A DNA stretch of 22,141 nucleotides from positions 1 through 22,141 of the IMG/VR virus record IMGVR_UViG_3300035158_000238; one strand, 5' to 3'. A program made the position numbers and the translations under genes. Of the stretch, positions 2,961-18,430 are shown piece after piece. The DNA comes from a virus. The notes beneath the pieces were generated by a model. It was not told where the DNA came from. It saw only the letters and a list, made by a program, of their open reading frames with translations, and made no database searches. The number at the start of each line of letters is the position of its first letter. The stretch's first letter is position 1.

Positions 2961-3155
2961 ATGAACGACGACAAGACTCCATTTACCACCTACGAAGAAG
3001 CCAAGAAATGGTTTTATCGTGCCCGCAACCGCATCAATGAGGTTGAGGATGAAGTGGATGAAAAGCGCGACGAGATCATCCGCTCCCTGGAGAAGAAGCT
3101 TTCCCAAAAAACTGAACTGCAAACGCTCTTTACCATACGGTGGCGAGTCATCTGA
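2961..3155 (+). CDS. small coiled-coil-like protein, possibly truncated at its 3' end
   Basis: 64 aa, mostly charged helix (residues 10-50, rich in E, D, K and R). The start is fixed by its own promoter (-10 ends 6 nt upstream). The last residues, from about 50 on, change character (LQTLFTIRWRVI), and the frame ends just before a much more GC-rich methyltransferase gene. This is consistent with the original C-terminus having been lost when the methyltransferase was acquired, but an intact relative is needed to show it. Function unknown. Confidence 0.55.
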   Translation: MNDDKTPFTTYEEAKKWFYRARNRINEVEDEVDEKRDEIIRSLEKKLSQKTELQTLFTIRWRVI

Positions 3156-3175
3156 ACCTTTGTGAAAACCCTGTC

Positions 3176-6100
3176 ATGACGAAATACGAAGAACTCATCG
3201 AGAAGCTGAAAGTCTTGTTTGAGCTGGACAAGGCCGACCTTGATTTTGGCATCCATCGGATCATTAAATCCCGGCACCGCGAAATCCTCCGCTACCTGCA
3301 AGGAGCGCCCGGATACGATGGCCCGATGCTCAAGCGCAAGGTGGAGCAGGTTCTAGGCGATCTTCAAGCTGCGGGGCAGGAAGACGAATTGGAGCGGCTG
3401 CGGGCGCAGATCGTCGAGGAGTTTGGACGGCGTGCTTTCAATGATGATGGCGAATTGGTCAACGAGGACGCCAAGGCGCACGATCTCGGGCAGCGGTGGA
3501 TGGTCTTGCAGGATGGCCAGGGGCACTACGGCCGCCGCTCGATGGAGCAACTGGAGACGGAGGTTTACTCTCACCTGCTCGAGTTCTTCGGTCGCTACTA
3601 CGAAGAGGGCGACTTCATTTCGCTCCGCCGCACACGGGCCGGAGCCAAACCCTACGCCATCCCCTACAGCGGGGAAGAGGTCGTCCTCCATTGGGCCAAC
3701 AAAGACCAATACTACATCAAGTCCTCCGAGGACCTGAAGGACTACACCTTCACCGTCGAGGAAATGGGCAGTCGCTTTCGCGTCCACTTCAAGTGCGCAC
3801 GTATGGACCCCGTGGCCAACAACAACAAGGCGCACCGAGCCTTCGTCCTCGATGAGGAGGCCGAGATCGAGGCGACAGAGGACACGTTGGTCATCCCGTT
3901 CTACTTCAAAATCTTTGAGCGGAAGCCGACCGAGAAGCAACAGGTGGAGGCGTTGGAGGAATCCCTGATGGCCGCGCTGGGGAACGAATGGAAGACCCGC
4001 CTCAATCAGCAGGGCACGAGCTACACCGGAAGCGGCGAGCGAACGCTCCTTCAGAAGCATCTCCAGAACTACACCCGGAAAAACACCACCGACTATTTTA
4101 TCCACAAAGACCTCGGCGGCTTCCTGAAACAGGAGCTGGATTTCTACATCAAGAACGAGGTGATGTATCTCGACGATGTGGACAATCGCCCGGCGGATTA
4201 CCTCACTGCCGAAGTCCGCAAGATCAAGGCCATCCGTTCCGTGGCCAAGGACCTGATCGACTTCCTCGCCCAGTTTGAGAATTTCCAGAAGCGGCTCTGG
4301 TTAAAGAAAAAGTTCGTCACCGAATGCCACTACTGCATCACCCTCGACCGCATCATCGAGCACGCGACCGAGCTGCTACCCGAGATCGCCGCCAACGAGG
4401 AGCAGCGCAAGGAATGGGTGAAGCTTTACGCAATTGACGAAATCCGCGCCGAAGAACTTGGACAGGTGGCTTACTCGGAGCCGCTGACGGTGGAGTTCCT
4501 GCGGGCGAATCCGTTTCTGATGGTGGATACGGGATTCTTTGCGTTTGACCAAAGAAAGAGGTTGCTGGAGGCGTTTGATGATTTGGACTCTGCAACTAAT
4601 GGTCTGCTGGTTCATTCCGAGAATCGCCAAGGAATAGACTTCCTTCGCATGCGATTGAGAAACCAAGTCAAGTGTATTTATATTGATCCTCCATACAACA
4701 CAGGGGAGGATGAGTTTATCTACAAGGACAACTATATGGAATCGAGCTGGCTAACCATGCTGGCAGAAAGGCTTAGAATCGCGCGTGATTTATTAAAGGA
4801 AGACGGCATTTTATTTTGCAGTATTGACGACGGAGAATATAGAAACTTGTGGCACATGATCTCTGCGGTGTTTGAGAAGAGAAATTACTTGTCAAGTTAC
4901 GTATGGAAAAGGCGTTCTTCATCGGGTTTAGCGGCAACTCCAATATCCCTAGATCATGAGTATGTGCTTGCGTATGCGAAGAATATAGGCGCGGCCAAGC
5001 TTTCTGGGCTAAAGAAAACGGAAGACGGATACCCTTATTGGGACGAGTTAAAGCATAAGCGTTTTGCGAGCACTGATCTTACCATTGGGGCAACGCGGGA
5101 ACAACGCCCTAATCAGTTTTATCCAATTACCAATCCTCGCACTGGCGTGACTTACGAGGGAAACCCTAATCGAGTTTGGAGGTTTTTCCCCGAAACAATG
5201 CGAGATGTCATAGCTCAAGACCTCGTGATCTGGCCTGATGAGTTTGAAGGCAATTTGGAAAGACCTCGGTATAAGACCTATTTTGATCCAGAAGAGGCAA
5301 AAACAAAACCATGTTCAAGTTGGATTGAATCGGCATCCACGAATGATCGAGAATTGAAGGAAGAAGAGTCGGATTACGAAATCGAAATTCTCACTTCCTC
5401 CATGAATCAAGAAGGTGGCCGTTCTCTTCAGCGCATCTTCGCTTCCAAGCCATTTGCTTATCCAAAACCAGTATCTCTTATTAGGTCATTTGTTAGGGCT
5501 GCTACCAATGAAGGTGCAATGGTTGGTGATTTCTTCGCGGGGTCTGGAACCACTGCCGATGCTGCAATTCGGCTACAGCGTGAGGATGGGAGACAAGCTT
5601 CTTATTTCTTGGTCGAGTTGGGTGATTACTTCGACGAAGTAATAAAACCCCGCATCCAGAAGGTCGTCTATTCCCCTGACTGGCGGGACGGCAAGCCCAC
5701 CCGCCGCGACGCAGGCATTTCTCACTGCTTCAAATACCTTCGCCTCGAATCCTACGAGGACACGCTTAACAATCTGGAACTGGAGGACCGCTCGGCGGAC
5801 CTGCTCGGCCTACCTGCCGACGTGCAGGAGGACTACCTGATCCGCTACATGCTGGACATCGAGACACGCGGCAGCCTGATGAACCTGCAACGGTTTGCCG
5901 ATCCGTGGGGCTGCACGCTGAAGATCTACGACCGCAAGCCCGGTGAAGCCCGACCGAAGGTAGTCGATGTGGTCGAAACCTTCAACTACCTGCTGGGCCT
6001 GCGCGTGCGGGAGCAGAAGGTCCACGAAGGCTTCCTCACCATCGAGGGTGAGAATCCCGCCGGTGAAACTGTGCTGGTCATCTGGCGCAAGCTCTCGGGC

Positions 6101-6292
6101 GAAAGCGACTGGCCCACGACTGACAATGCGGCCCTGAACGCCTTCGTCGCCGACGAGCTGCGGGTGAACCCGGTAGACACCGAATACGCCGCCATTTACA
6201 TCAACGGCGACACCACCCTCGAAGACCCGCACAAGAAAATCCTCCTCACCGAGCAGGTCTTCCACGAACTGATGTTTGCCGACACCGAGTAA
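3176..6292 (+). CDS. orphan beta-class adenine DNA methyltransferase (type III Mod / DrmMI-like)
   Basis: 1038 aa predicted N6-adenine methyltransferase. DPPYNTG (504-510) is catalytic motif IV and FFAGSGTT (786-793) is the S-adenosylmethionine-binding motif I; the order IV, target-recognition region (about 560-770), I is the beta class, as in type III Mod subunits. The long N-terminal region (1-450) and C-terminal domain (830-1038) are as in the large single-chain methylases of type III or DISARM-like systems. ATG 3176 is preferred to GTG 3140. No Res, helicase or nuclease gene is adjacent; small phage genes flank it. The ends are GC-rich (39/60 G+C at 3601-3660) while the catalytic/target-recognition block is not (27/60 at 4741-4800). 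As an orphan it probably marks phage DNA against host restriction; the target site cannot be read from sequence. Confidence 0.85.
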   Translation: MTKYEELIEKLKVLFELDKADLDFGIHRIIKSRHREILRYLQGAPGYDGPMLKRKVEQVLGDLQAAGQEDELERLRAQIVEEFGRRAFNDDGELVNEDAKAHDLGQRWMVLQDGQGHYGRRSMEQLETEVYSHLLEFFGRYYEEGDFISLRRTRAGAKPYAIPYSGEEVVLHWANKDQYYIKSSEDLKDYTFTVEEMGSRFRVHFKCARMDPVANNNKAHRAFVLDEEAEIEATEDTLVIPFYFKIFERKPTEKQQVEALEESLMAALGNEWKTRLNQQGTSYTGSGERTLLQKHLQNYTRKNTTDYFIHKDLGGFLKQELDFYIKNEVMYLDDVDNRPADYLTAEVRKIKAIRSVAKDLIDFLAQFENFQKRLWLKKKFVTECHYCITLDRIIEHATELLPEIAANEEQRKEWVKLYAIDEIRAEELGQVAYSEPLTVEFLRANPFLMVDTGFFAFDQRKRLLEAFDDLDSATNGLLVHSENRQGIDFLRMRLRNQVKCIYIDPPYNTGEDEFIYKDNYMESSWLTMLAERLRIARDLLKEDGILFCSIDDGEYRNLWHMISAVFEKRNYLSSYVWKRRSSSGLAATPISLDHEYVLAYAKNIGAAKLSGLKKTEDGYPYWDELKHKRFASTDLTIGATREQRPNQFYPITNPRTGVTYEGNPNRVWRFFPETMRDVIAQDLVIWPDEFEGNLERPRYKTYFDPEEAKTKPCSSWIESASTNDRELKEEESDYEIEILTSSMNQEGGRSLQRIFASKPFAYPKPVSLIRSFVRAATNEGAMVGDFFAGSGTTADAAIRLQREDGRQASYFLVELGDYFDEVIKPRIQKVVYSPDWRDGKPTRRDAGISHCFKYLRLESYEDTLNNLELEDRSADLLGLPADVQEDYLIRYMLDIETRGSLMNLQRFADPWGCTLKIYDRKPGEARPKVVDVVETFNYLLGLRVREQKVHEGFLTIEGENPAGETVLVIWRKLSGESDWPTTDNAALNAFVADELRVNPVDTEYAAIYINGDTTLEDPHKKILLTEQVFHELMFADTE

Positions 6293-6602: not shown

Positions 6603-6625
6603 TTGATCAACCACAAAAAAACCAA

Positions 6626-6653
6626 AAAAGGGCGAGTTTTCTCGCCCTTTTTT
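6626..6653 (+). terminator. Rho-independent terminator (copy 1 of duplicated cassette)
   Basis: GGGCGAG (6630-6636), TTTT loop, CTCGCCC (6641-6647), then six T. An A-run precedes the stem, so it could also work on the minus strand. The same 35 bp, including the following TTGACA, recurs at 7188-7222. Confidence 0.9.
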
Positions 6654-6654
6654 G

Positions 6655-6684
6655 TTGACAGAAACCCGTCATTCTTGCTATTCT
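6655..6684 (+). promoter_or_regulatory. sigma70-type promoter, leaderless arrangement
   Basis: TTGACA (6655-6660), 18 nt spacer, TATTCT (6679-6684), then 6 nt and ATG 6691. It starts one base after the T-run of the upstream terminator. Confidence 0.7.
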
Positions 6685-7164: not shown

Positions 7165-7187
7165 TCCGACACCGAAAAAAAAATCAG

Positions 7188-7215
7188 AAAAGGGCGAGTT
7201 TTCTCGCCCTTTTTT
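7188..7215 (+). terminator. Rho-independent terminator (copy 2 of duplicated cassette)
   Basis: GGGCGAG (7192-7198), TTTT loop, CTCGCCC (7203-7209), then six T. It is identical to the copy at 6626-6653. Confidence 0.9.
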
Positions 7216-7216
7216 G

Positions 7217-7245
7217 TTGACATGATTGGCAGAATAGGCGATAAT
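7217..7245 (+). promoter_or_regulatory. sigma70-type promoter, leaderless arrangement
   Basis: TTGACA (7217-7222), 17 nt spacer, GATAAT (7240-7245), then 6 nt and ATG 7252. Confidence 0.7.
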
Positions 7246-7251
7246 AGCATC

Positions 7252-7611
7252 ATGATAACGACAATCAAGACGAAATCAAAAATTGACGCTTCCCCCCTCA
7301 AGCTCAAGAACGGGTCTTGGGGGGCTCGGGTCAAGAGCGAAAGTGTGGAATCCGGCGACTCCATTCTGATCACCACCAAGAGTGGCAAGTCTTGGACCGC
7401 CACCGTCTCCAAGGTATTGTGGTCCGGCAATGGAGTTTCCATTGTGACCACTCGGTCCAACAAGAGCCGGAGTAACTATGTTCCGGCGGTTCGGAACCGA
7501 AACGGTTATGTGGTTGACCGAGGCCATTACGAGGGCTATTGCGGATATCCCTGTCCGGTGACCGGGAGGAAGTGCTGCCCCAAGAACGGGCCTTGCCACG
7601 ACTGTTTGTAA
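7252..7611 (+). CDS. hypothetical protein with cysteine-rich C-terminus
   Basis: 119 aa basic protein. Residues 1-85 look like beta strands with many Lys, Ser and Thr, including a repeated 'SGKSWTATVSKVLWSGNGVS' texture that suggests a small barrel. The C-terminus has a cysteine cluster C-x3-C-x6-C-C-x5-C-x2-C, a likely zinc-binding or disulfide knob. ATG 7252 is chosen over ATG 7222, which lies inside the promoter. It is the only gene between two terminators. Nucleic-acid binding would fit but is inference. Confidence 0.75.
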   Translation: MITTIKTKSKIDASPLKLKNGSWGARVKSESVESGDSILITTKSGKSWTATVSKVLWSGNGVSIVTTRSNKSRSNYVPAVRNRNGYVVDRGHYEGYCGYPCPVTGRKCCPKNGPCHDCL

Positions 7612-7623
7612 GATGACCCGGCC

Positions 7624-7663
7624 AAGACCGTCTCGGATTTTCCCCCGAGACGGTCTTTTTTTT
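7624..7663 (+). terminator. strong Rho-independent terminator
   Basis: 13-bp stem AAGACCGTCTCGG (7624-7636) / CCGAGACGGTCTT (7645-7657), 8 nt loop, followed by T residues to 7663. The next promoter starts within two bases. Confidence 0.92.
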
Positions 7664-7664
7664 C

Positions 7665-7693
7665 TTGCCATTCCGAAAAAACCATGCTACCTT
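7665..7693 (+). promoter_or_regulatory. sigma70-type promoter, leaderless arrangement
   Basis: TTGCCA (7665-7670), 17 nt spacer, TACCTT (7688-7693), then 6 nt and ATG 7700. Confidence 0.6.
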
Positions 7694-7699
7694 AAGACT

Positions 7700-7990
7700 A
7701 TGAAGACAGAAACCATAATTGTAACCAGACACTCCGCTCTGGTCGATCTTCTGATTGAGCGGGGTGTCATCAACGGGGACGAAGAGGTCATTTCCCATGC
7801 CACCTCAGAGGACATCACGGGCAAGAATGTCATTGGTGTCTTGCCCCTGAGGCTGGCCTCGATGGCCAAGACGGTGACCGAAGTCCCCCTGAAGCTGACC
7901 GCCGATGATCGAGGCAAGGAATTGCCCATCGAGCGTCTGCGTGAAATCGCAGACGATCCGGTCACTTACACTGTCGGAGTGGTCAACTGA
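7700..7990 (+). CDS. Csx16-family protein (candidate ring nuclease / anti-type III CRISPR)
   Basis: 96 aa, full length for the Csx16 (VVA1548) family. Matching family features in order: IIVTRHSALVDLL at 6-18 (family 'fvTRHpGAvdWl'), VIGVLPLRLA at 44-53 ('ViGtLPvhlaa'), RGKEL at 71-75 ('RGreLs'), and a beta-strand end YTVGVV. Csx16 genes are normally found in type III CRISPR loci, and I recall the family being reported to degrade cyclic oligoadenylate; that is memory, not shown here. Here it is the first gene of a phage transcript, with its own terminator-promoter boundary and no cas genes nearby, which suggests an anti-CRISPR that quenches the host second messenger. ATG 7700 is fixed by the promoter. 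It overlaps the next gene (TGATGA). Confidence 0.75.
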   Translation: MKTETIIVTRHSALVDLLIERGVINGDEEVISHATSEDITGKNVIGVLPLRLASMAKTVTEVPLKLTADDRGKELPIERLREIADDPVTYTVGVVN

Positions 7991-8241
7991 TGAATGACCA
8001 AGAAGACAAAAAGTCGATCTCTCTCCTAGCCGCCCTTGGTCTCCTTGGGTGGCTAGTGATTTTTCTCTGGATCTTTGCTCCGGTCGGATTGATCAATCTG
8101 ATCAATCTTCTCTACGGACTTGATCTGGCCGTCAACGAATGGACCATCACCAAGGGGATGATTCTTGTAGTGAGCACTTATCTGGTGGTCAAATATGCAA
8201 TCATCTTTTTGATTCGGTTTGCATGGTCTATCGCAAAATGA
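7990..8241 (+). CDS. small inner-membrane protein, two TM segments
   Basis: 83 aa. After a charged N-terminus there are hydrophobic spans at about 12-33 (LLAALGLLGWLVIFLWIFA region) and about 55-77 (MILVVSTYLVVKYAIIFLIR region), joined by a short loop. The second span ends in a basic residue. The gene overlaps the csx16-like stop (TGATGA), so the two should be co-translated. No holin-specific feature beyond size and hydrophobicity is seen; function unknown. Confidence 0.75.
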   Translation: MNDQEDKKSISLLAALGLLGWLVIFLWIFAPVGLINLINLLYGLDLAVNEWTITKGMILVVSTYLVVKYAIIFLIRFAWSIAK

Positions 8242-8276: not shown

Positions 8277-8540
8277 ATGAGCAAAAGCAAAAAAAATCTA
8301 CGAATCGGCGATGTCAATTACCTTGTAGAAGCTGACTGGTCTGACGGATCGTCCACAATTCTCGTCAATGGTGAGCGAACACCCTATGATGTCTCCGATT
8401 TTGGGTCTCCGGAAGACATGGCCCATCCGAACAGCATCATGATTCGGTGGCTGGACCCCTATGCGATCTATGACATCAAAGAAGGGGCAATCAGTTCTGA
8501 GGTCGTTGATGTTCTCACCGAAGAGGGTGGTCAGGATTGA
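8277..8540 (+). CDS. hypothetical phage protein, 87 aa
   Basis: Small acidic protein of unknown function with no recognised motif. Two starts are possible: ATG 8238, which overlaps the upstream stop as ATGA, or ATG 8277, preceded by an A/C-rich, Shine-Dalgarno-free stretch like those before the genes at 16308 and 19408. I favour 8277 because the protein then begins MSKSKKNLRIGDVNYLV, a normal-looking start, but the choice is uncertain. A hairpin terminator overlaps the stop codon. Confidence 0.65.
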   Translation: MSKSKKNLRIGDVNYLVEADWSDGSSTILVNGERTPYDVSDFGSPEDMAHPNSIMIRWLDPYAIYDIKEGAISSEVVDVLTEEGGQD

Positions 8541-8559
8541 CCGATTTTTTTCGGTTTTT
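8540..8559 (+). terminator. short Rho-independent terminator
   Basis: ACCGA (8540-8544), T6 loop, TCGGT (8551-8555), followed by four more T. The stem is only 5 bp but it is well placed between a stop codon and a promoter. Confidence 0.55.
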
Positions 8560-8597: not shown

Positions 8598-8915
8598 ATG
8601 TCCAAGAAAGAATACAGCGTGAAGGTCGAAAAGTTTTTCGACGAAGCTCCTGAGTACATCCTTGAAATTCTCCGGAAGCATTTTGGCTCTGCTGAGGAGC
8701 CGGGAATTTCCATTGAGGGGACCGTCAATGGATGGCTGACCTCTGGGACCTATGACGATCCCCCTGAAGGAGATTGCGAGTTTGACGACGATGTCGTTGT
8801 CAACATTTCGATCAAGGATCGGAATGTCGATCTTGATCCCCTCAGTGAGGATTCTGATGTGATTTTGTCCTACTTTGAGGACGAAATCTTTGATTGGGCC
8901 GTTGATCGGGTGTAA
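8598..8915 (+). CDS. hypothetical acidic phage protein, 105 aa
   Basis: Very acidic soluble protein (many Asp and Glu) beginning MSKKEYSVKVEKFFDEAPEY. No domain is recognised. Strand-rich segments around 35-75 (GISIEGTVNGWLTSG, VVVNISIKDRNVDL) suggest a small beta sheet. Acidic phage proteins of this size can be DNA mimics, but there is no specific evidence for that here. It is the first gene of the unit that includes the HD hydrolase and exonuclease; the stop is 3 nt before the next ATG. Confidence 0.7.
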   Translation: MSKKEYSVKVEKFFDEAPEYILEILRKHFGSAEEPGISIEGTVNGWLTSGTYDDPPEGDCEFDDDVVVNISIKDRNVDLDPLSEDSDVILSYFEDEIFDWAVDRV

Positions 8916-8918
8916 GAT

Positions 8919-9491
8919 ATGACCGAGAAGCACGGCGAAATCGCAACAAAGGCTGCCTACTTTGCGGCTGGTGCCCACAAGAGCATCGGCCACAAGAGGC
9001 GGTACACTAACAAATGCTATTTTGACACTCATGTGTCGGAGGTAGCAAGGACCATCTACATGATGGAAAACAGCACCGAGGAAATGGTGGCTCTGGCCTA
9101 TCTGCATGATGTTGTTGAGGACACTCATGTCACTATTGATATGCTGAGGTCTCTTTTTCCTCATATCTTGGTCGGATATGTGAGCATTCTGACCAAAGAC
9201 ATGGGTGCCTATGGAGTTGGTCTACCCAATCGGTTTGAAATCGCCAAGATAGAAGCCGAACGAATCAACTCCAGTATTGATCCTTATGTTACGGCAACGG
9301 TCAAGTATGCAGACATTCTCTCCAACCTGTCAGATGTCTATGAAAAGGATGTCTCTTTTGCCAAGACCTATGTAAAGGAAAAGGAGATCATGATTGACAT
9401 CATGGACAAGGGTGATCAATATCTGAAGAGAATGTGTTATTTGCTGATTGACGAGATCAACGAAAAGATCAAGGAAGGAACCAAAGAATGA
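8919..9491 (+). CDS. HD-domain small alarmone hydrolase (SpoT/Mesh1-like)
   Basis: 190 aa. The HD hydrolase residues align with Mesh1/SpoT-type (p)ppGpp 3'-pyrophosphohydrolases: H38 in YFDTHVSEVAR, H63-D64 and E67-D68 in LHDVVEDT, and D132/N136 in VKYADILSNL. Early RRYTNKCYF (27-35) takes the place of the 'RrKd..g.PYi.HP' substrate loop. There is no synthetase domain, as in free-standing hydrolases. The likely role is removal of ppGpp during infection so that host starvation signalling does not slow phage synthesis; other nucleotide substrates are possible. It overlaps the exonuclease gene by 4 nt (ATGA). Confidence 0.8.
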   Translation: MTEKHGEIATKAAYFAAGAHKSIGHKRRYTNKCYFDTHVSEVARTIYMMENSTEEMVALAYLHDVVEDTHVTIDMLRSLFPHILVGYVSILTKDMGAYGVGLPNRFEIAKIEAERINSSIDPYVTATVKYADILSNLSDVYEKDVSFAKTYVKEKEIMIDIMDKGDQYLKRMCYLLIDEINEKIKEGTKE

Positions 9492-17236: not shown

Positions 17237-18430
17237 ATGAGTAAGATATTTGGTAAAGACGGGCTCATCCCCAACGAGCCGCTCTGGAAAAACTGGGAGA
17301 AATTCCCGCCCGAAAAGTTTGCGTCAAAGGTCGGCGATATGCTGAATTTTTACAATTCGCATACCGACAAGAGCGATCTCAAGAATGATCTGCTTGAATG
17401 GATGGCCCACCAAGAATTCAACAAATCTGATGTGTCCAAGGTAAGGTCTCGGTATGATGAAATTCCGTTCACTGCTGCCAAGATCGCCCGAGCCATTAAT
17501 GTAGGAATGCCCGAAGAGCATCCTCTCAACGAGGGGCATCAGAAATCAACAACCGAATTTCTGAAGAAGTCGATCAATCATGTTCTGAATTCTGATCCTC
17601 CGGCCAAGATTGAAAATAACGACGAAGCCCCAGAATCCAAGCAAGCCCCCAAGATTTCTCCAATGGAAAGGCTGCGGAACAAGGTCGAATCAACGGTCGT
17701 GGCCGATCTCAATGTGATGATCGACGAATGGATCATGGCCTCGTCCAATCAGATTGCACCGATTGACATTGTGGCCAAAATCAAATCCAACGAAATTCCT
17801 CCCAAAGGAATCCCTATAATTCGAGAATGGATCAATCGTTCCAAGAAGGAAATTGATCTGGCCCGTGAAGGAAACGATCCTGATCTGACCGAAGGATATT
17901 CCTATCTGGGCAAACGCGCTCTCAATGCATGGTCCAAGAATCTGCAAAAGATGAATGACGATCTGGACAAGTATGAACGCAAACTGAAACAGCAGAAAAA
18001 GAAGTCTGGCAAGAGCAAGAGCACCCAGAAAAAGCAGACAGCGGCTCAACTTGCCAAACAGGTGGCCAAAGTCTCTTATCAGTCGTCTATTGAGATTTCA
18101 CCCTCTCTGATTCTGGAGTCAATTCAGCCGATTGAAATTCTGGGGTCTCGGTTTCTTTTCACCTTCAATTCCAAGTATCGCAGAATCTCTTTCTTTGCAG
18201 CCAAGAATCGGGATGGGATCTCGATCAAGGGGACGACTCTTCAGAATTTTGATACTGATCAAAGTTTCAGTCTTGTCCTTCGGCATCCTGAAAAGGTTCT
18301 CAATATGTTTCTGGATCAGAGCTCGAAGTCTGAAAGAGTTCTTCAAGAGCTTGACAAAGAGAATACAAAGCGTAATGTACCCAATGGCCGACTCGGTCAG
18401 AACACAGTACTACTTGCAAAATTCAAATAA
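17237..18430 (+). CDS. conserved T4-superfamily protein of unknown function, 397 aa
   Basis: Three regions. Residues 1-110 begin GLIPNEPLWKNWEKFPPEKF and are helical. Residues about 140-270 are a charged helical middle with a Lys-rich linker (KLKQQKKKSGKSKSTQKKQ). Residues about 280-397 are a beta-rich C-terminal domain with FLFTFNSKYRRISFFAAKNR, GISIKGTTLQNFD and LVLRHPEKVL. I associate this C-terminal pattern with an uncharacterised protein found beside the 33-59-32 cluster in marine T4-like phages; that is recollection and should be checked. Position suggests a role in replication or late transcription. There is no Shine-Dalgarno; a TATAAATA lies upstream. Confidence 0.75.
   Translation: MSKIFGKDGLIPNEPLWKNWEKFPPEKFASKVGDMLNFYNSHTDKSDLKNDLLEWMAHQEFNKSDVSKVRSRYDEIPFTAAKIARAINVGMPEEHPLNEGHQKSTTEFLKKSINHVLNSDPPAKIENNDEAPESKQAPKISPMERLRNKVESTVVADLNVMIDEWIMASSNQIAPIDIVAKIKSNEIPPKGIPIIREWINRSKKEIDLAREGNDPDLTEGYSYLGKRALNAWSKNLQKMNDDLDKYERKLKQQKKKSGKSKSTQKKQTAAQLAKQVAKVSYQSSIEISPSLILESIQPIEILGSRFLFTFNSKYRRISFFAAKNRDGISIKGTTLQNFDTDQSFSLVLRHPEKVLNMFLDQSSKSERVLQELDKENTKRNVPNGRLGQNTVLLAKFK

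Follow-up and report, generated by a model that had tools for sequence, protein, structure and literature searches.

A Csx16-family gene in a phage genome fragment: a predicted cyclic tetra-adenylate ring nuclease and candidate antagonist of host type III CRISPR

Cellular Csx16 degrades cyclic tetra-adenylate (cA4) specifically in vitro, not cA3 or cA6, and the protein tested fully degraded cA4 supplied at 100-fold excess; ring nucleases of this kind occur together with cA4 effectors, and phage-encoded Csx16 has previously been reported in two of 28,114 genomes (PMC12409355). The known viral destroyers of type III messengers are few, namely AcrIII-1, AcrIII-2 and Crn4b in phages, and their natural anti-CRISPR action is disputed: AcrIII-2 failed to give rescue in vivo, and it is contested whether AcrIII-1 serves as an anti-CRISPR in its native setting (PMC12751052). 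Since both phage Csx16 and viral ring nucleases are already known, the gene described here adds a further case. Novelty may lie in the mobile-element branch of Csx16 in which it falls, in how large that branch is and how separate.

The csx16 gene product and its phage

The window (the whole stretch of DNA that was analysed) is an entire IMG/VR virus record of 22,141 bases, representing a fragment of a phage genome. In addition to csx16 it encodes a gp32-like SSB (phrog_224, E 8e-104), a gp59-type helicase loader, ThyX, a SleB-type endolysin, an RNA ligase and a flavodoxin, a gene content that bears out the phage context given in a preliminary description of this DNA. The gp32 protein is nearest to those of T4-like cyanophages, at 43-55% identity, implying that the source is, as judged from its genes, a T4-like phage of a lineage missing from the isolate collection; searches with the proteins encoded at 8919-9491 and 17237-18430 found no close relatives of the phage. 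Neither Cas10 nor RAMP genes were found in the 22,141-base record, in agreement with the earlier claim that no cas genes lie nearby.

Two other products of the record were examined by eye. The protein at 8919-9491 appears to be an HD phosphohydrolase like the ppGpp hydrolases (HDVVEDT motif) and matches phrog_990, and that at 1116-2021 looks like an ADP-ribosyltransferase-type fold (YHG...GL motifs) and has no family match.

The csx16 reading frame is present exactly as first described, and the three claimed hallmarks are located at residues 8-11 (VTRH), 44-49 (VIGVLP) and 71-75 (RGKEL). A Pfam profile search matched PF09652 (Cas_VVA1548, that is, Csx16) to residues 7-90 of the protein and model positions 2-88 of 91, with an E-value of 1e-14 and 54.9 bits against a gathering cut-off of 25, and the PADLOC Csx16 models agree (best E 1.5e-13). 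Against the NCBIfam model TIGR02620, an equivalog domain for type III-associated Csx16, the protein scores 18.3 bits, well short of the 46.35 that the model requires. The product is thus, as judged from these profiles, a Csx16 domain, an assignment that we regard as safe, but its form is not the canonical type III one. The Csx16 part of a PADLOC CARF-HEPN-Csx16 fusion model also matches (E 4.7e-5), which ties the Csx16 domain to cyclic oligoadenylate (cOA) effectors.

The columns conserved in type III-associated Csx16 (T/SRH, H33, G-LP, RG-E-L) are all kept in the window protein. In an alignment of 28 viral sequences, the window included, and seven cellular ones, R10, H11, G46, P49, R71, G72, E/D74 and L75 are kept in nearly all and H33 in most. 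Across the 34 viral and cellular relatives H11, G46, P49, G72 and L75 are invariant and R10 and R71 nearly so, and the window protein has all seven.

The AlphaFold2 model, made from an alignment (pLDDT 95.4), is a Rossmann-like monomer of alternating strands and helices, in which the conserved residues occupy the loops that follow strands 1-3 or precede the last helix. Loops of that kind are the usual ligand edge of Rossmann-like folds. Neither the PDB nor BFVD yielded a Foldseek match to the model at E<=0.001. When 1000 PDB chains were re-aligned with VIA, the top 50 rows included several cOA-binding CARF/SAVED proteins (Cam1, Cad1, Sso2081 and a viral SAVED), with Z-scores of 2.8-3.9 and interspersed with methyltransferases and other, unrelated Rossmann folds; these rows lend mild support to a predicted cOA-binding fold. 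AcrIII-1/Crn2 entries were absent from the VIA list. A published Csx16 model gave a DALI hit at Z 4.8 to an AcrIII-1/Crn2 homologue (PMC12409355), so that the earlier statement that AcrIII-1 has a different fold is not settled.

Matches of the protein to DARPins (designed ankyrins), seen with phmmer against PDB sequences at E 7.5e-5 or worse, were rejected as chance likeness: the segment GKNVIGVLPLRLAS resembles the ankyrin consensus G-TPLHLAA, and the model shows a Rossmann-like sheet rather than a helical repeat.

Transcription unit and surrounding cargo

The arrangement of signals around csx16 (Table 1) suggests that it is one of several successive cassettes, each transcribed separately from a putative promoter and probably leaderless. 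The promoter that had been claimed for csx16 is plausible, as it stands directly after a terminator and has a layout that is enriched in the window. This layout, a TTGACA-like element, 16-18 nt, a TANNNT-like element, exactly 6 nt and an ATG, is also found before the genes at 2961, 6691, 7252 and 10205, and in weaker form at 8598. Leaderless-type sites number 14 in the whole window, against 4.5 +/- 2.1 (maximum 11) in 200 first-order Markov simulations, and the window-wide spacing between -10 element and ATG peaks at exactly 6 nt. The repetition of such promoters suggests a host with many leaderless mRNAs, and the start of csx16 would itself be leaderless.

Table 1. Features in and around the predicted csx16 transcription unit
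Feature	Position	Strand	Remarks
Terminator and promoter start of preceding cassette	7170..7222	+	91% repeat of 6608-6660
Neighbouring, independently transcribed cassette gene	7252..7611	+	No family match
Intrinsic terminator of upstream gene	7624..7663	+	13-bp stem (hairpin 7624-7657) and T-run; insulates csx16
Putative promoter	7665..7693	+	TTGCCA-17-TACCTT, TGN-extended -10; ends 6 nt before csx16 ATG
csx16	7700..7990	+	ATG start; 96-aa Csx16/PF09652 protein, predicted cA4 ring nuclease
Gene for 83-aa hydrophobic protein	7990..8241	+	2-3 membrane segments; overlaps csx16 stop codon (TGATG)
87-aa ORF	8277..8540	+	No function assigned; probably last gene of csx16 transcript
Terminator-like hairpins with T-runs	8528..8556	+	Probable end of csx16 transcript

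The overlapping membrane-protein gene is probably co-transcribed with csx16. A general operon of csx16 with a membrane protein was considered and rejected: a downstream ORF was called in 12 other viral loci, and in only one of these (L011) is it a membrane protein, with a single hydrophobic segment.

The two copies of the 53-bp terminator/promoter block could possibly serve as a recombination handle for the exchange of cargo genes. The G+C content is 0.51-0.59 across most of 3.0-8.0 kb, although it falls to 0.45 at 4.5-5.5 kb, compared with 0.36-0.50 for most of the record, and the higher values fit a cargo region. Within this stretch, at 3140-6292, is a gene for a 1,050-aa type III (Mod) DNA methyltransferase; the ORFs examined in the record included no recognisable Res restriction partner, and the methyltransferase is a possible anti-restriction gene.

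Relatives in viruses, plasmids and cellular genomes

Used alone as query, the window protein found nothing in a scan of viral contigs or in a tblastn search of the phage collection. An alignment-based scan found relatives beyond the window in 30 viral records or loci, with at most 58% identity in the best segment. The PF09652 cut-off was exceeded in 26 of 29 viral records, nearly all of these copies scoring 54-76 bits and one 25, and a terminase (phrog_2) is encoded in 20 of 30 viral records, the window included. None of the 29 related viral records searched has Cas10, and RAMP is absent from 28 of them, the other having a borderline match ~50 kb from csx16. When neighbouring proteins were clustered, none besides csx16 was shared by more than three loci, implying that csx16 is an accessory gene scattered among phages that are otherwise unrelated. 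Relatives are also borne by plasmids (Deinococcus pDEIPR02, Allomeiothermus pMESIL02 and one archaeal plasmid), again with no annotated cas genes within 6 kb of csx16. The family had been described at the outset as otherwise tied to type III loci, a view that must be given up, since there is a cas-free branch of Csx16 borne by mobile elements.

In the phage isolate collection a viral query matched only the Methanobacterium viruses Drs3 and PhiF3, which may be the two csx16 phage genomes counted previously (PMC12409355). For two close viral copies of csx16 the dN is 0.09 and the dS 0.58 (dN/dS ~0.15), values indicative of purifying selection, which shows csx16 to be maintained in at least one phage pair.

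Our cellular sample comprised 398 genomes from one phylum, the Pseudomonadota (that of a Pelistega MAG). Csx16 scored over the cut-off in 12 of the 398, always at 115-140 bits, and in nine of these 12 it lies 0.5-7 kb from a RAMP gene on the same contig; a first scan of the genome contigs with a viral-type pattern had found no relatives. The plasmid copies of Aeromonas media and Photobacterium toruni are inside cas loci. In a maximum-likelihood tree, a branch (80/95, not starred) sets apart 20 cellular, mostly cas-linked sequences; the other main group (91/87) comprises 29 viral sequences and two from plasmids. This division is to be read with the partly different search patterns behind the two sets, the shortness of the protein and the many weak inner branches in mind. 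A four-residue insertion is present in the cellular group and absent from the viral one. We tentatively suggest that the viral group could be a common mobile branch, distinct from the form found in type III loci, with members in many unrelated bacterial phages and in some plasmids and ranking among the commonest viral families that destroy cA4, which surveys of phage collections have largely missed because it falls below the cut-off of the strict type III model and is rare in isolates.

Several features of the viral loci are recorded here as separate observations. Directly 3' of csx16 in L008 (7729-8019) is a protein that by eye looks like an ADP-ribosyltransferase-type fold (YHG...GL motifs), and pentapeptide-repeat proteins are encoded near or directly downstream of csx16 in L016, L022, L026, L019 and L025. 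Tandem Csx16-like domains, one of them degenerate, are found in L003 (5992-6777), L032 (9713-10279) and L034 (9722-10291), and are perhaps fused dimers. Some phages with sister csx16 copies have terminase matches containing in-frame stops (G015:C1:70218-71654, G021:C1:18951-20273, G016:C1:38291-38707 and G028:C1:70087-70236), which could be read as a recoded genetic code, introns or frameshifts.

Predicted function and comparison with known systems

Why does a phage with no Cas10 or RAMP partner in its record encode a Csx16 protein? The likely answer, in our view, is that this is a cA4 ring nuclease deployed against the type III CRISPR system of the host. The activity is predicted because cellular Csx16 cleaves cA4, and the anti-CRISPR role because of the context: the record yielded no Cas10, so the cA4 that the protein would destroy is most simply taken to be host-made, as for AcrIII-1 and AcrIII-2. 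The cOA-degrading role put forward in the preliminary description is thereby narrowed, in that the literature makes a ring nuclease likely and points to cA4, with cA3 and cA6 not favoured (PMC12409355). We envisage a stand-alone enzyme that the infecting phage would express from a promoter serving this gene. Like the cellular Csx16 tested, it would probably act as a small Rossmann-like dimer, binding cA4 produced by host Cas10 and linearising it by means of conserved elements, namely the T-R-H loop, H33 and the R-G-x-E-L loop; the loss of cA4 would then switch off cA4-activated type III effectors, to the presumed benefit of the phage.

It is also conceivable, if unlikely, that the viral branch targets some other defence nucleotide, for example a CBASS cyclic oligonucleotide, with the same fold and a shifted specificity. 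The viral and plasmid branch does stand apart from the type III branch and is without the four-residue insertion, and Crn4b shows that ring nucleases of mobile elements can act on cA3 (PMC12830947), but the conserved putative pocket residues are all retained in the window protein, the tested Csx16 is cA4-specific (PMC12409355) and PADLOC models include fusions of the Csx16 domain with CARF effectors. We think it improbable that the protein is a cA4 sponge that binds with no useful turnover, a role that has been suggested for ring nucleases of weak activity. Csx15 binds cA4 well and cleaves it slowly (PMC13148439), and the catalytic residues of Csx16 are unmapped in the literature covered; the complete degradation of excess cA4 by the tested Csx16 (PMC12409355) nevertheless argues otherwise, as do the retention of H11 and R10/R71 in the window protein and the argument that the large messenger output of type III systems makes sponging inefficient (PMC13148439). 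Repurposing of the domain for a function unrelated to immunity messengers, to which the high divergence among viral copies and the failure to reach TIGR02620 might point, seems very improbable given the conserved motif set, the purifying selection and a scattered presence, in unrelated phages without common neighbours, that resembles that of a counter-defence gene. Already disfavoured, and scarcely credible, is a normal self-limiting role within a phage-carried or host-flanking type III locus: although the record is a fragment and one related record has a borderline RAMP match, the Cas10 and RAMP searches were otherwise negative in the window and all 29 related records, the genes around csx16 are phage replication and lysis genes, and in the tree the window sequence lies apart from the type III branch.

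As a probable cA4 ring nuclease, the window protein can be set beside several described systems. With cellular type III Csx16 (PF09652/TIGR02620) it shares the same Pfam family over its full length and the T/SRH, H, G-LP and RG-x-E-L positions; it differs in being phage-borne, with no cas genes and no four-residue insertion, and in lying in a separate tree branch and below the TIGR02620 cut-off. The Csx16 proteins of Drs3 and PhiF3 are likewise virus-encoded with no adjoining cas genes, but these are archaeal viruses and their sequences fall outside the branch that holds the window. AcrIII-1 (viral Crn2) and AcrIII-2 (viral SAVED) are also small ring nucleases of viruses, for which destruction of cA4 has been proposed (PMC12409355, PMC12751052), but they belong to different protein families, and no sequence relation to them was found in this analysis. 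Crn4b, in phages and plasmids, is similarly a ring nuclease family common to type III loci and mobile elements, and the T-x-H and R residues conserved in it, which are thus far implicated in its catalysis (PMC12830947), can be counted as a likeness to Csx16, whereas its fold is unrelated and its cOA specificity broader. Compared with these few viral messenger destroyers, a Csx16 branch spread across unrelated phages without cas partners offers many natural test cases, and makes it testable, for another family, whether viruses gave ring nucleases to CRISPR loci or took them.
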